The notes beneath the pieces were generated by a model. It was not told where the DNA came from and searched no databases. It saw nothing but the letters and a program-made list of their open reading frames with translations. From the NCBI RefSeq assembly GCF_028595305.1, contig NZ_JAQQXS010000001.1, positions 248,001 to 312,000 of the forward strand: 64,000 bases of DNA. The letters are read 5' to 3'. Source of the DNA: Roseateles koreensis. Lineage in GTDB: Bacteria; Pseudomonadota; Gammaproteobacteria; Burkholderiales; Burkholderiaceae_C. The position numbers were made by a program, and so were the translations under genes. Below are positions 41,419-46,052 of this stretch, piece after piece (positions within the stretch are counted from its first letter, which is position 1; the number at the start of each line of letters is the position of its first letter).

Positions 41419-41605
41419 GGGCTCAGTGTAAGGCTATGGGCCTCGAGCGTTGATTTCGCCCAAGGCAGAATCGTGACTTTTGGTGCGCCAGACGGCCGGG
41501 TCGATCGCTTTGCTGGGCGGGAGTTTCAACGCGTGATTTTGGGCGTAACGTGGAGCTTGAACGGTTTTTTCTTGGCCGCGCGGCAAGGCGGGCGCTGGCA
41601 TTCCG

Positions 41606-41611
41606 TATAAT
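41606..41611 (+). promoter_or_regulatory. perfect -10 element (TATAAT) before the structured leader
   Basis: TATAAT stands in a GC-rich context and would start transcription near 41618, just before the hairpin array. No convincing -35 is seen at 16-18 nt upstream, so a -35-independent or regulated promoter is implied if it works. By position it could be the native guaB promoter. Confidence 0.4.
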
Positions 41612-41617
41612 GCCGCT

Positions 41618-42128
41618 TTGCGGTGCGACACGTTTGTGTCACCCGACCACCTTTGCGTGGTCATATGGGAAGGTTGCCTTTGTGCAACTCATGTTTCGGG
41701 CGGACTTTTGACTGCTCGATTGTGTGGGTCAGCTTCGGCTGAACCCATCTCTGCCGGAGATGGAATTCGTTCCAACTTCGTTTAAGGGCTTCTTCGGATG
41801 CTCTTTCAAGCCCTAGGGCTTGTTTGGACGCGCGGTCGACTTCGGTCAATGCGCACGATCAGAAGTTTGCAGGGGAATTTCCTGTGAATGACTGCGGGAT
41901 TCGTGCGCATGGAACACCAAAAGTGTTTCCCTGTGTGCGTTTCAATAGCCACTATGAGGGCTATTTACCGGGTGCTTTCGGGCGCTCGTCGTGAGGCCTT
42001 CTTTTAGGCTTCGTCTCAGGGTGATCAACTCTGATTTGCCTTGTCATGCGTCCGTGGGAACGGTATGCCATGACCTGTTGTGTGATCAACAGTAGCCTAC
42101 GGTGGCATGCAAAATTGGTAACAATTCT
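41618..42128 (+). ncRNA. candidate structured RNA or guaB leader with about twelve hairpins
   Basis: No open reading frame of interest lies here, yet hairpins follow each other almost without gap: 41622-41643, 41645-41662, 41673-41688, 41725-41747, 41747-41761, 41784-41805, 41830-41854, 41911-41930, 41944-41965, 41993-42012, 42043-42074 and 42075-42092. Two have TTCG loops closed by C-G on the plus strand, which points to plus-strand RNA. TATAAT precedes it. It lacks tmRNA, RNase P, 6S and riboswitch signatures known to me. It is the 5' exon of a group II intron and runs toward guaB. Whether it is an independent RNA or a guaB 5' UTR cannot be decided by eye. Hairpins were found by inspection; no energy was calculated. 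Confidence 0.4.
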
Positions 42129-42722
42129 GTGTGAAGCCCACCGGACAACGTCCACCCACACTAGTGGCATATTTGTCCGTGAGGACGGTATGAACCTGCC
42201 AGCAGGAAGGCGGGGGAAGGGCTAGGCTAGTTCCATATGGGTAACTTAAGTGAACTGTCGTTTGAACTTGCGTAAGCATTGATTGGCCAAACCTGCTGTT
42301 AGGCCAAAGCCAAAAGGCATGCTGCTAGGTGTCCTTGTCGCAAAAGAGGGCACATCACCGACGCGCAGTCGCAAGATAGACAGGCCCTAACTGGGTAGAC
42401 ATTGCAGAGTTTTGATGTGATGTCGGCAATTCAGGGAACGTGGTAAGCCCCACCATCTGCCTGTGCACCTCGGTGCGAAGGCAAGGAAATCGCGAGATGA
42501 CCTGTCGGGTGAGGGGGTATGGGATTGTGGAAAAAGCGAATGCCCGGCCGTAATAGTCGGGATAGAGGTTCAAACTTTGCCTCTCTGCGAAAGCAGGCTG
42601 ACTTCCACTTGGTGCAACCGTCGCAAGTCGGTTGTTGAGTTCTGGAACTGCCCCTTGGGCGCGCATGTCGTCGCCCATCGGGTGGCGGCGTGTGCACTCG
42701 AAGGGCCACCAACGAGGAAAGC

Positions 42723-44423
42723 ATGGAAGAAGTCATCGGTAACGATGATTCTGCGTCCTCGCACGAACCGAGCGATTGGCATGCCATTCAATGGCAGAAG
42801 ATTGAGCGGAGCGTGAGGACGACGCAAATCAGAATTGCGAAGGCAGCGCATGAATGCGACTGGCGCAGAGTGAAAGCTCTGCAACGGTCGTTGACACGCT
42901 CGTTTGCCGCCAGAAGTTTGGCGGTGCGACGGGTGACTGAGAACCAAGGCAAGCGGACGGCGGGAGTCGATCGTGAACTTTGGGAGACGCCGACCATTAA
43001 ATGGGAGGCTGTCAGTGCCTTGAAGCAGCAGCGTGGATATAGGCCAAGGCCGTTAAGGCGGGTCTACATCCCGAAGGCAAATGGCAAGGAGCGCCCGCTG
43101 GGCATTCCGACGATGAAAGACAGGGCAATGCAGGCACTTCACCTGCTTGGCTTGGAGCCGGTCGTCGAATCGCTGAGTGATCCGAATAGCTACGGCTTTC
43201 GGCGAAATCGCTCGACGGCTGATGCCATGAGTCAGTTGTTCGTTTGTTTGTCCCAGAAGGCTGCGGCTCCCTGGGTCTTGGAGGCGGACATCGAAGGCTG
43301 TTTCGACCACATCAATCACGAGTGGCTGGTGAATCATGTCCGCATGGACAAGACAATCCTACGCAAATGGTTGAGGGCAGGGGTGGTCTACAAGGGGCAG
43401 ATGACAAGCACCATTGAGGGTACGCCACAGGGCGGCATCATTTCGCCAACTTTGGCGAATGTGGCTTTGAATGGACTGGAGGCTGGCCTGCGTGCATACA
43501 TTCGCACTCAAGTGGCTCCGTCGAAGGTCCAAAAGCTCAAAGTCAATGTGGTCAGGTACGCTGACGACTTCGTAATCTCAGGCGCGTCGAAAGACTTGCT
43601 TGAGGAGGTTGTTCGGCCGTGGATAGAGGCATTCCTTGCACAACGAGGCTTGCGTCTATCGCCGATTAAGACACGAGTCACACACATTGACGATGGGTTC
43701 GATTTCCTGGGTTGGAATTTCCGGAAGTACTCGGGAACTCTCTTGATTAAGCCTAGCAATAAGAACGTTCGCGCGTTCTATGGCAAGGTTCGGGAGATCG
43801 TCAAAAGCCACAAAACGGTGAAACAGGCGGACCTCATTGAGATATTGAACCCGGTCCTTCGGGGTTGGGCTCAGTACCATCAGCCGGTGGTCGCTAAAGA
43901 AACGTTCAACAAAATCGACTCGCTGCTTTGGTGGCGATTGACGCGTTGGGCGCGGCGGATCCATCCGAAGAAGTCTGCAGCTTGGGTGGTCAAGAAGTAT
44001 TGGACCATCTTTGACGGACGTTCTGAGTTCGCGGCTCGGGTTCGGATGGGGGATGGTGAAGTCAAGTGGAAGCGGCTGTATCGGCTTGCCGATACGGAAA
44101 TTGTCCGTCACAAAAAGGTCAAAGGGGACTTCAATCCTTTCGACCCGGCGTGGGAAGCGTACGGCGAGGAATTGAGGGCGCAGCGTCTGCTGAAAAGCAT
44201 GGCGTATCGCACCCAATGGACTTCGTTGTTTCGCTCGCAAAACGGCAAATGCGCTCACTGCGGCATAGCCATGACCAAGGAAACGGGTTGGCATGACCAT
44301 CACCTGGTACCCCAGGGGATGGGCGGGTCAGACTCGTTATCTAACCGAGTGCTTTTGCACCCGGTATGCCATCACCAACTGCATGCACGCGGGTTGTCAG
44401 TTGTGAAGCCGGCCTCTGAATGA
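42723..44423 (+). CDS. ltrA: group II intron reverse transcriptase/maturase with HNH domain
   Basis: The 566-residue intron-encoded protein has reverse transcriptase blocks including GKERPLGIPTMKDRAMQ, SYGFRRNRSTADAM, the template region TPQGGIISPTLANVALN and the active-site YADD (Tyr279, in VRYADDFVISG). A maturase X domain follows (ILNPVLRGWAQYHQPVVAK). The C-terminus carries an HNH endonuclease with zinc-type cysteines (GKCAHCGIAMTKE, WHDHHLVPQGMGGSDSLSNR, HPVCHHQLHA). The ATG at 42723 lies behind an AGGAAAG stretch; an in-frame GTG at 42690 is the alternative. The protein would bind the intron RNA, help splicing and drive retrohoming. No frameshift is seen. Confidence 0.93.
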   Translation: MEEVIGNDDSASSHEPSDWHAIQWQKIERSVRTTQIRIAKAAHECDWRRVKALQRSLTRSFAARSLAVRRVTENQGKRTAGVDRELWETPTIKWEAVSALKQQRGYRPRPLRRVYIPKANGKERPLGIPTMKDRAMQALHLLGLEPVVESLSDPNSYGFRRNRSTADAMSQLFVCLSQKAAAPWVLEADIEGCFDHINHEWLVNHVRMDKTILRKWLRAGVVYKGQMTSTIEGTPQGGIISPTLANVALNGLEAGLRAYIRTQVAPSKVQKLKVNVVRYADDFVISGASKDLLEEVVRPWIEAFLAQRGLRLSPIKTRVTHIDDGFDFLGWNFRKYSGTLLIKPSNKNVRAFYGKVREIVKSHKTVKQADLIEILNPVLRGWAQYHQPVVAKETFNKIDSLLWWRLTRWARRIHPKKSAAWVVKKYWTIFDGRSEFAARVRMGDGEVKWKRLYRLADTEIVRHKKVKGDFNPFDPAWEAYGEELRAQRLLKSMAYRTQWTSLFRSQNGKCAHCGIAMTKETGWHDHHLVPQGMGGSDSLSNRVLLHPVCHHQLHARGLSVVKPASE

Positions 44424-44492
44424 GGCTTTGGTGTGGGAAATGGGGTGTGTTATATACTAACGTGCTCCCCGAACCCGCACGTTGTTGTGCTT

Positions 44493-44526
44493 GAGCCGGA
44501 TGCGGTGAAAGTCGCAAGTCCGGTTC
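44493..44526 (+). other. group II intron domain V
   Basis: A 34-nt hairpin: GAGCCGGA pairs with TCCGGTTC (eight pairs, one G-U), then a two-base bulge (AG, 44517-44518), an upper stem TGCGG/TCGCA and a GAAA loop. The catalytic AGC triad is at 44494-44496. This is the diagnostic element of the intron and appears intact. Confidence 0.85.
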
Positions 44527-44582
44527 TTAGGGGGGGATGGGTCAGCAATGACCTGTCCCTACCCACCACTGGAGCTTCCCTC

Positions 44583-46052
44583 ATGCGCCTTTTAGGAAAA
44601 GCGCTCACCTTCGACGATGTTTTGTTGGTGCCAGCGTTCTCCCATGTGTTGCCTCGCGACACCAGCCTAGCCACCCGGCTTTCCCGCAACATCCGCCTCA
44701 ACTTGCCCCTGGTCTCTGCGGCCATGGACACGGTGACTGAAGCGCGCTTGGCCATTGCGATCGCGCAAGAAGGCGGCATCGGCATTGTTCACAAGAACCT
44801 GCCGGCCAAGCAGCAGGCCATCGAAGTCGCACGCGTCAAGCGTTACGAATCGGGCGTTGTTCTGGACCCCTTCACGGTTACCCCCAGCGCCACAGTGCGC
44901 GAGGTGGTGGAGTTGAGCCGCCAGCACGGCGTCTCCGGCTTCCCCGTGTTGGAGGGCAAAAAGGTGGTGGGCATCGTCACCGGGCGCGATTTGCGCTTTG
45001 AGACCCGCATGGACCTGCCTGTGCGCGAAATGATGACCCCCGCTGAGCGCTTGGTCACCGTCAAGGAAGGCGCTTCCCTGGAAGAAGCCAAGGCCTTGAT
45101 GCACCAGCACAAGCTGGAGCGTGTGGTGGTGGTCAACGAAGCCTTCGAGTTGCGTGGCCTGATGACGGTGAAAGACATCACCAAACAGACCAGCTTTCCG
45201 AATGCCGCCCGCGATGCCCAAGGCAAGTTGCGCGTGGGCGCTGCCGTGGGTTTTGGCGATGACACCGAAGAGCGTGTGTCCTTGCTGGTCAAGGCGGGCG
45301 TGGACGCGCTGATTGTTGACACGGCACACGGCCACAGCGCTGGCGTGCTGGAGCGGGTGCGTTGGGTCAAGCAGAATTTCCCGGGCGTTGATGTGATTGG
45401 CGGCAATATCGCCACCGGCGCAGCGGCGCTGGCGCTGGTTGAGGCCGGTGCGGATGGCGTCAAGGTCGGCATCGGCCCGGGCTCTATCTGTACGACGCGC
45501 ATCGTTGCCGGCGTGGGCGTGCCTCAGATCACGGCCATCGACAACGTCGCTACCGCGCTGCGCGGTACCGGCGTGCCGGTGATCGCCGACGGTGGCGTGC
45601 GCTTCTCGGGCGATTTGGCCAAGGCCATTGCGGCCGGTGCCGATTGCGTGATGATGGGCGGCGCCTTTGCCGGGACCGAAGAAGCGCCTGGCGACCTGAT
45701 CTTGTACCAGGGCCGCTCCTACAAGAGCTACCGTGGCATGGGCTCGATGGGGGCCATGGCCAAGGGCTCGGCGGACCGCTACTTCCAGGACACCTCGGCC
45801 AACAACCCCAATACCTCCAAGCTGGTGCCTGAGGGCATCGAGGGCCAAGTGCCGTACAAGGGGTCGGTGGTGCAGGTGATCTTCCAGATGGCCGGTGGCT
45901 TGAAAGCGTCGATGCACTATTGCGGCTGCGGCACCATCGAAGAGATGCAAAACAAGGCTGAGTTCGTTGAAATCACTTCGGCGGGCATGCGCGAAAGCCA
46001 TGTCCACGATGTGCAGATCACGAAAGAAGCGCCCAACTACCGATCCGAGTGA
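44583..46052 (+). CDS. guaB: IMP dehydrogenase GuaB
   Basis: GuaB oxidises IMP to XMP, the committed step of guanine nucleotide synthesis. The ATG at 44583 ([20 protein letters not shown]) lies 8 nt behind GGAG and gives 489 residues; the frame extends upstream into the intron but is not coding there. Motifs: [20 protein letters not shown], two CBS domains (about 95-210), the catalytic [15 protein letters not shown] with Cys303, [14 protein letters not shown] and the flap region [10 protein letters not shown]. The group II intron ends about 17 nt upstream, between the ribosome site and whatever promoter lay before. Expression then depends on a promoter within the intron, read-through or splicing. 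Confidence 0.97.

Follow-up and report, generated by a model that had tools for sequence, protein, structure and literature searches.

Background

Group II introns whose intron-encoded protein (IEP) is of the HNH type use ordinary homing sites; in yeast, the retroelement Ty3 integrates where Pol III starts transcription. For bacterial group II introns in general, a 2015 review distinguishes, in its accessible part, three types of target, namely homing sites, terminators and attC sites (PMC4424553). These introns are said seldom to interrupt housekeeping genes (PMC6003770, accessible part), and a 2022 survey relates their insertion to terminators and to the replication strand, the word 'promoter' being absent from its main text as far as that text is accessible (PMC8919778). 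Putative promoters were predicted directly upstream of all the group IIB introns identified in integron arrays of halophiles (2021, PMC7923331, accessible part). In the literature searched, chiefly freely accessible papers, no description was found of promoter targeting by group II introns. Waldern et al. reportedly surveyed intron neighbourhoods in 2020, and an earlier description of a promoter address may be found there or in other subscription papers.

Here an element within a 64,000-nucleotide stretch of Roseateles koreensis DNA (termed the window) is analysed together with its relatives. It is probably a mobile group II intron with an HNH-bearing IEP, placed in sense orientation behind the -10-like hexamer of guaB and belonging to a clade that settles at this kind of address. 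The element is thus of a known kind; its address is a new variant of target choice. Like HNH-type introns at ordinary homing sites, it has a GUGCG boundary, domains I and V/VI, a reverse transcriptase-maturase-HNH protein and pairings of EBS1 and EBS2 with their IBS partners; unlike those introns, the members of its clade occupy sites that span many genes and that have in common their distance to a -10-like hexamer. As with Ty3, a retroelement comes to lie within a few bases of (here, predicted) transcription starts, but element and mechanism are unrelated, and in the intron clade RNA pairing would supply most of the recognised bases. Like the group IIC introns at terminators and attC sites, as described in the accessible part of PMC4424553, the lineage is tied to a functional expression element rather than to one gene; unlike them, that element is the -10/start region of promoters, the IEP has an HNH domain, and the EBS1 and EBS2 pairings are both kept. 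The integron-array introns resemble the clade in the putative promoters predicted directly upstream of them, but they reside in gene-cassette arrays, and the accessible part of that report claims neither a fixed distance nor a promoter target (PMC7923331).

Results

A complete intron upstream of guaB

In the preliminary description of this DNA, positions 41618-42128 were singled out as a candidate RNA of unknown class, either independent or a regulatory leader of guaB. On sequence comparison this stretch is not self-contained but belongs to a complete group II intron, as the 5' part of its domain I (Table 1): the actual element begins at 41623 and continues past 42128 as far as 44567. Its first bases, GTGCG, conform to the GUGYG required at group II 5' ends, and the insertion is precise when set against the empty site of genus-mates (TTTGCG|ACTGG). 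Domain I, domain V/VI, EBS-IBS pairing and a reverse transcriptase/maturase protein are all present; the latter, of 566 residues, matches TIGR04416 with 368 bits (cutoff 300) and might alternatively start at an upstream GTG at 42690. We take the intron to be of the chloroplast-like class with an HNH-bearing IEP. A group IIC (terminator/attC) intron was considered and is ruled out by the HNH domain and by insertion behind a -10-like hexamer. At the 3' end the intron finishes in CC (CCCACC|ACTGG) instead of the AY consensus given in the accessible part of PMC7923331, a minor departure, given that the position is fixed by the empty sites and that related introns finish in CC or AC. Both splicing and mobility are predicted for this intron.

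Table 1. Features of the guaB locus, in positions of the window.
Feature	Position	Strand	Basis
-10-like hexamer TATAAT, in 5' exon upstream of guaB	41606..41611	+	sequence; word TCCGTATAATGCCGCTTTGCG in genus-mates
IBS2 (AATGC), final three bases of hexamer plus two	41609..41613	+	5/5 pairing with EBS2; register by covariation, 49 introns
IBS1 (TTTGCG), end of 5' exon	41617..41622	+	6/6 pairing with EBS1
Group II intron	41623..44567	+	2945 nt, GTGCG...CCTACCCACC; empty-site comparison, G001 intron at same base, RF02012 and RF00029
Hairpin-rich 5' part of domain I	41623..42073	+	fold z -5.6; segments of related introns; covarying helices
Conserved portion of domain I, Rfam group-II-D1D4-7	42074..42221	+	RF02012, 112.8 bits, E 6.1e-23, gathering 34
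EBS2 (GCATT)	42276..42280	+	exon covariation over 49 introns, 5/5 pairs in 43
EBS1 (CGCAAA)	42339..42344	+	alignment column versus exon -1..-6; 6/6 in 37/52 introns, z 18 versus permuted exons
IEP: RVT_N, RVT_1, GIIM maturase, HNH endonuclease	42723..44423	+	Pfam; TIGR04416
Domains V and VI and intron 3' end	44491..44567	+	RF00029, 60.8 bits, gathering 40
3' exon leader with Shine-Dalgarno-like GGAG	44568..44582	+	sequence; ORF 15 nt from 3' splice site
guaB (IMP dehydrogenase)	44583..46052	+	Pfam IMPDH, 535.9 bits

When the stretch was searched for in 39 genomes, 21-28 nt around TATAAT proved common to 17/17 genus-mates, all of which have the word TCCGTATAATGCCGCTTTGCG (window 41602-41622), including the downstream side of the hexamer; DNA farther upstream is variable, and no conserved -35 region is evident upstream of the hexamer among these 17. 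The intron is missing in 16 of them, where the guaB ATG follows TATAAT at 26-27 nt and the empty site reads TTTGCG|ACTGGAGC; the remaining genus-mate (G001) has a related intron at the very same base, and in both the window and G001 the 3' exon picks up again after ...CCTACCC[AT]CC. The window intron sits 11 nt behind the guaB hexamer, in sense, which would correspond to about +5 of guaB if transcription starts at the usual, here predicted, position.

The hairpin-rich segment

The dense hairpins originally noted are borne out. Positions 41610-42079 fold at -194.9 kcal/mol, as against a mean of -160.2 (sd 6.2) for 100 dinucleotide shuffles, none of which is as low (z = -5.59); refolding gives 15 terminal loops (about 17 were counted by eye in the first fold), CTTCGG occurs three times on the plus strand (41733, 41792 and 41840), and the reverse strand likewise folds well (z -3.9). 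The perfect TATAAT is present as well. Within the set of 52 related introns described below, drawn from the best 80 of 576 relatives, the 5' domain I segment could be cut out of 31 (median length 364 nt), and 29 of these have z < -2. Covariation among homologues, the check that had been proposed, turned out positive: over 8 related introns, 9 of 16 tested pairs changed on both sides and 98.4% of cells are paired, counted in three eye-picked helices only, because the 8-intron alignment of 5' domain I is poor in the middle. Set against 500 shuffles, four of five covariation measures are higher than every one of them, the exception being the count of further pair types, 10 as against a shuffled mean of 12.4. 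Across the intron family this front portion of domain I evolves fast and is rich in hairpins. Because domain I diverges fast, the hairpin region used as a DNA query against the 39 genomes matched, beyond its own genome, only the promoter word below E 0.01.

What does not survive is the interpretation of the structure as an RNA of its own. Dense, stable folding behind TATAAT would fit an independent RNA or a guaB leader, and if the TATAAT promoter is used the hairpin RNA would indeed be transcribed ahead of guaB. Against this, the whole element is missing in 16/17 genus-mates that keep both the TATAAT word and guaB, it belongs to a complete intron, and elements of this kind stand before other genes too; the empty sites rule out a self-standing RNA or guaB leader, a reading to which we attach a vanishingly small probability. 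Within 41618-42073 no Rfam family reaches its gathering score, which, with the absence from 16/17 genus-mates, also disposes of a riboswitch. RF02012, however, begins at 42074, inside the interval first delimited, and together with RF00029 this assigns the RNA to a known family instead of an unknown class, an outcome that the preliminary description had itself named as refuting its proposal. A structured RNA behind TATAAT therefore stands; its independence, its novelty of class and its leader role do not.

Insertion 9-12 nt behind a -10-like hexamer

The best 80 of 576 IEP relatives in public genomes, with the window and G001, made up a first sample of 82 loci, 70 of which have a 5' end recognisable by pattern (12 do not); merging 18 with near-identical flanks left 52 sites. 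Splice sites were located by the word GTGCGAC in this sample and by GTGCGAY together with EBS1 pairing in a second one, the hexamer being used in neither. In 48 of these 52 non-redundant sites (again, from the best 80 of 576 relatives) a hexamer of the sigma-70 -10 type, scoring at least 4 bits, lies 9-12 nt before the 5' splice site; counts in 48 control windows of the same flanks averaged 1.2, with a maximum of 5. The offset is 10 nt in 30 sites, 11 in 9, 9 in 8 and 12 in 1. As to the four sites below 4 bits, L069 and L076 score 3.9, while L094 and L107 are negative and both outside the clade described below.

A -35 element, in contrast, was detectable in none of three separate attempts: TTG at a spacing of 16-18 occurs in 3/50 sites (control mean 2.2), on a measure that at other candidate promoters of the host picks up little as well. 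The missing signal may mean that these are -10-only promoters, or that the intron particle reads the word itself. For scale, 400 kb of host DNA contain 1040 strong hexamers, of which 93 lie between genes with the start of a sense ORF no more than 110 nt away (93 of 324 if only intergenic strong hexamers are considered), the ORFs here coming from a simple script with a rule different from that used at the intron sites.

Pairing of EBS1 and EBS2 with the 5' exon

Across an alignment of the 52 introns, one block of columns is complementary to exon positions -1..-6 (mean 0.94, versus 0.47 for permuted exons), which places EBS1 and supports the 5' ends; exon -1 to -4 are paired in 52, 52, 51 and 52 of the 52 introns, respectively, as against permuted means of 22-33. 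EBS2 was analysed in 49 introns (L076, L094 and L107 were skipped), and its bases 1-5 are paired in 43, 49, 49, 48 and 48 of them. The centre of EBS2 is an A in 49/49, opposite the last T of the hexamer, and the other four bases show covariation with positions 4 and 5 of the hexamer and with the two bases after its end. At the 18 sites whose hexamer is off offset 10, EBS2 pairing tracks the hexamer (0.933) and not the insertion point (0.356): by this covariation EBS2 is anchored on the hexamer. For hexamer bases 1-3, pairing with EBS2 does not exceed chance in the 49 introns. Since bases 1-2 are unpaired, EBS2 pairing is unlikely to be the sole cause of the hexamer.

Promoter-type introns fall mostly into one clade

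The second sample, from 399 order, 399 family and 369 class genomes (overlapping sets), yielded 50 further loci, among them 2 without a profile hit, 6 without a splice site, 8 matching the first set and 12 repeats; 42 loci gave a site, and 22 sites are new and non-redundant. The hexamer is present at 11/11 of those inside the clade (5.6-11.1 bits) and at 1/11 outside. A quick IEP tree with 119 rows has 92 that carry the promoter-type label (hexamer score of at least 3.5); 88 of them fall within one clade of 90, with support 99, and the label requires 6 changes, versus 24.5 in shuffles. The four promoter-type rows outside the clade, L105, L108, L111 and L162, seem to match by chance. Introns with the guaB word form one group (support 87), inside which an ndk intron (L036) is nested, its EBS1 and EBS2 matching its own site.

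Two Xenorhabdus introns (L100 and L103) lie inside the promoter clade without a hexamer, at sites that end in TAA or TGA. L197, on a Cupriavidus taiwanensis plasmid and not placed in the tree, has an IEP 65% identical to that of the window and sits behind TACTAT at offset 10; no sense gene is recognisable downstream of it, making it an exception to the promoter rule.

What follows the introns

The 3' end was found at 43 of the 52 sites (9 lack one), 42 of these being in the clade, and for 30 of the 42 the downstream protein was scanned against NCBIfam (E up to 1e-20, or 1e-15 in one batch). Twenty-five of the 30 match a model, each starting within the profile's first 35 positions and many of them housekeeping proteins; several matches fall under the curated cut-off because ORFs were clipped at 1500 nt, and the other five proteins have no NCBIfam match. 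The matched families include Ndk, S15, CTP synthase, LptA, ZapD, Psd, UvrC, SecA and SecB as well as RNase T, ArgH, UbiE, CoaD, DapA, HemB, HemJ and RadC. Among the 12 unscanned sites, the window, L033 and L035 have guaB. In L040, another of these 12, a tRNA-Tyr begins 2 nt into the 3' exon, and in L049 a leader resembling the Mn riboswitch stands at the start, with 30.6 bits (under the gathering score of 45).

Proximity to genes by ORF picking alone was discarded as weak: the picker reports an ORF at most intron 3' ends and equally at 390/430 random positions. With tighter demands (an ATG within 115 nt and at least 140 codons) the figures are 26/43 intron 3' ends versus 114/430 random positions. 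Because random positions give ORFs too, gene proximity rests on the family matches.

One sub-clade (L088-L090, L092, L093, L097, L098, L101, L102 and L112) has an ATG at the end of its 5' exon, at 6-7 nt from the preceding -10-like hexamer. At 8 sites whose 5' exon ends in this way, an open frame of 101-630 codons starts with the first base of the 3' exon, in register with that ATG. In intron-free relatives of hemJ, a TAnnnT-like hexamer was seen by eye 6-7 nt before the ATG in 9/10 examined, and transcription may therefore begin at the AUG. If it starts at that A, the sub-clade would have a 5' exon consisting of AUG alone, and only splicing would give the gene this start codon.

Discussion

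Intron boundaries, EBS/IBS covariation, the fixed distance to the hexamer and, where scanned, the downstream protein family are established at the level of sequence, and retrohoming with an unusual target would be the economical reading of them. Most likely, a particle of lariat and protein reads the non-template strand at three points. The TA at the start of the hexamer, being unpaired with EBS2, would be read by the protein or be there because the site must be a promoter; EBS2 would take hexamer bases 4-6 and two more bases, and EBS1 the six bases that end at the insertion point. The particle would then reverse-splice at the recognised point. Such an insertion would leave the promoter intact and make the intron the first thing transcribed, while the downstream gene would retain its ribosome-binding site; in one sub-clade only the gene's ATG sits in the 5' exon.

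With little better than even confidence, we incline to the view that the clade targets the start region of promoters as a fourth kind of target, using the -10 as an address and inserting at about +4 to +5, possibly via the strand opened by transcription, and that the intron, with a 5' exon of only a few nucleotides (perhaps AUG in one sub-clade), is driven by promoters of the host, in many cases those of housekeeping genes. A sharper form of the three-part recognition described above, whose probability overlaps with it, has the particle invade the melted non-template strand at a moment when the promoter is occupied by RNA polymerase or has only just been vacated by it. The promoter bubble extends from about -11 to +3, and with an offset of 10 and a start seven bases behind the hexamer the RNA-paired span, -9..-5 and -2..+4, nearly coincides with it; the strand of the IBS2 and IBS1 footprint is also as expected, many sites precede housekeeping genes, and merely 93 of the 1040 strong hexamers of the host are promoter-like in position. 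Sigma, however, holds the T at -7 in the open complex, the base that EBS2 pairs, so that particle and polymerase would compete, and neither the site of L197, at a hexamer with no evident gene, nor the missing -35 signal is what such targeting predicts. This form is possible, but we hold it only tentatively.

Two further readings dispense with a promoter address. The hexamer might be a target word only, defined by EBS2 pairing and protein contacts and having nothing to do with promoters, as could be argued from the coverage of hexamer bases 4-6 by EBS2, from L197 and again from the lack of a -35 signal. That 25/30 scanned downstream proteins match their families near the N-terminus, and that the hexamer is kept in intron-free relatives of guaB (the word in 17/17) and of hemJ, speaks against this, and we consider it unlikely. 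Slightly less probable still is that the introns land widely and survive only where a host promoter precedes them and a gene follows, so that they are transcribed and do little harm. Selection of this kind would account for sense orientation and gene proximity, but leaves unexplained the distance of 9-12 nt, the rigid register of EBS2 and hexamer, the invariant A at the centre of EBS2, and the choice of different sites by related introns that lie outside the clade.

If promoter targeting is correct, a clade landing ahead of guaB, rpsO, secA, pyrG, dapA, hemB and tRNA-Tyr adds a fourth target type to those described, and it becomes understandable how an intron can live before essential genes and be transcribed by them. 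It also raises the questions of whether a group II intron is able to splice with a 5' exon of 3-5 nt, whether transcription opens the target, and whether hexamer-anchored EBS2 sequences could serve for insertion at chosen promoters.

Other related introns

Sites outside the clade are of other kinds, such as exons ending in TAA or the anticodon arm of tRNA-Gly. The latter is split by a related lineage (L128, L145-L150, L159, L160 and L163) with IEPs 51-53% identical to that of the window. A complete tRNA-Gly gene (ccc; tcc in L159) stands directly before the IEP gene in 10/10 scanned loci of this lineage, and in the nine loci whose 5' junction was examined that complete copy is within the intron, as if the intron were bringing a replacement gene. 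Two more distant plasmid introns, L199 (IEP 52%) and L200 (IEP 57%), have no TAnnnT 8-12 nt before their GTGCGAC candidates. Finally, a sequence deposited as a circular Pseudomonas aeruginosa plasmid (L198, CP075775.1, 2837 bases) consists of a single group II intron of similar kind, opening with GTGCG at base 1 and closing with CTACCCGAC, and may represent either an intron DNA circle or an assembly artefact.
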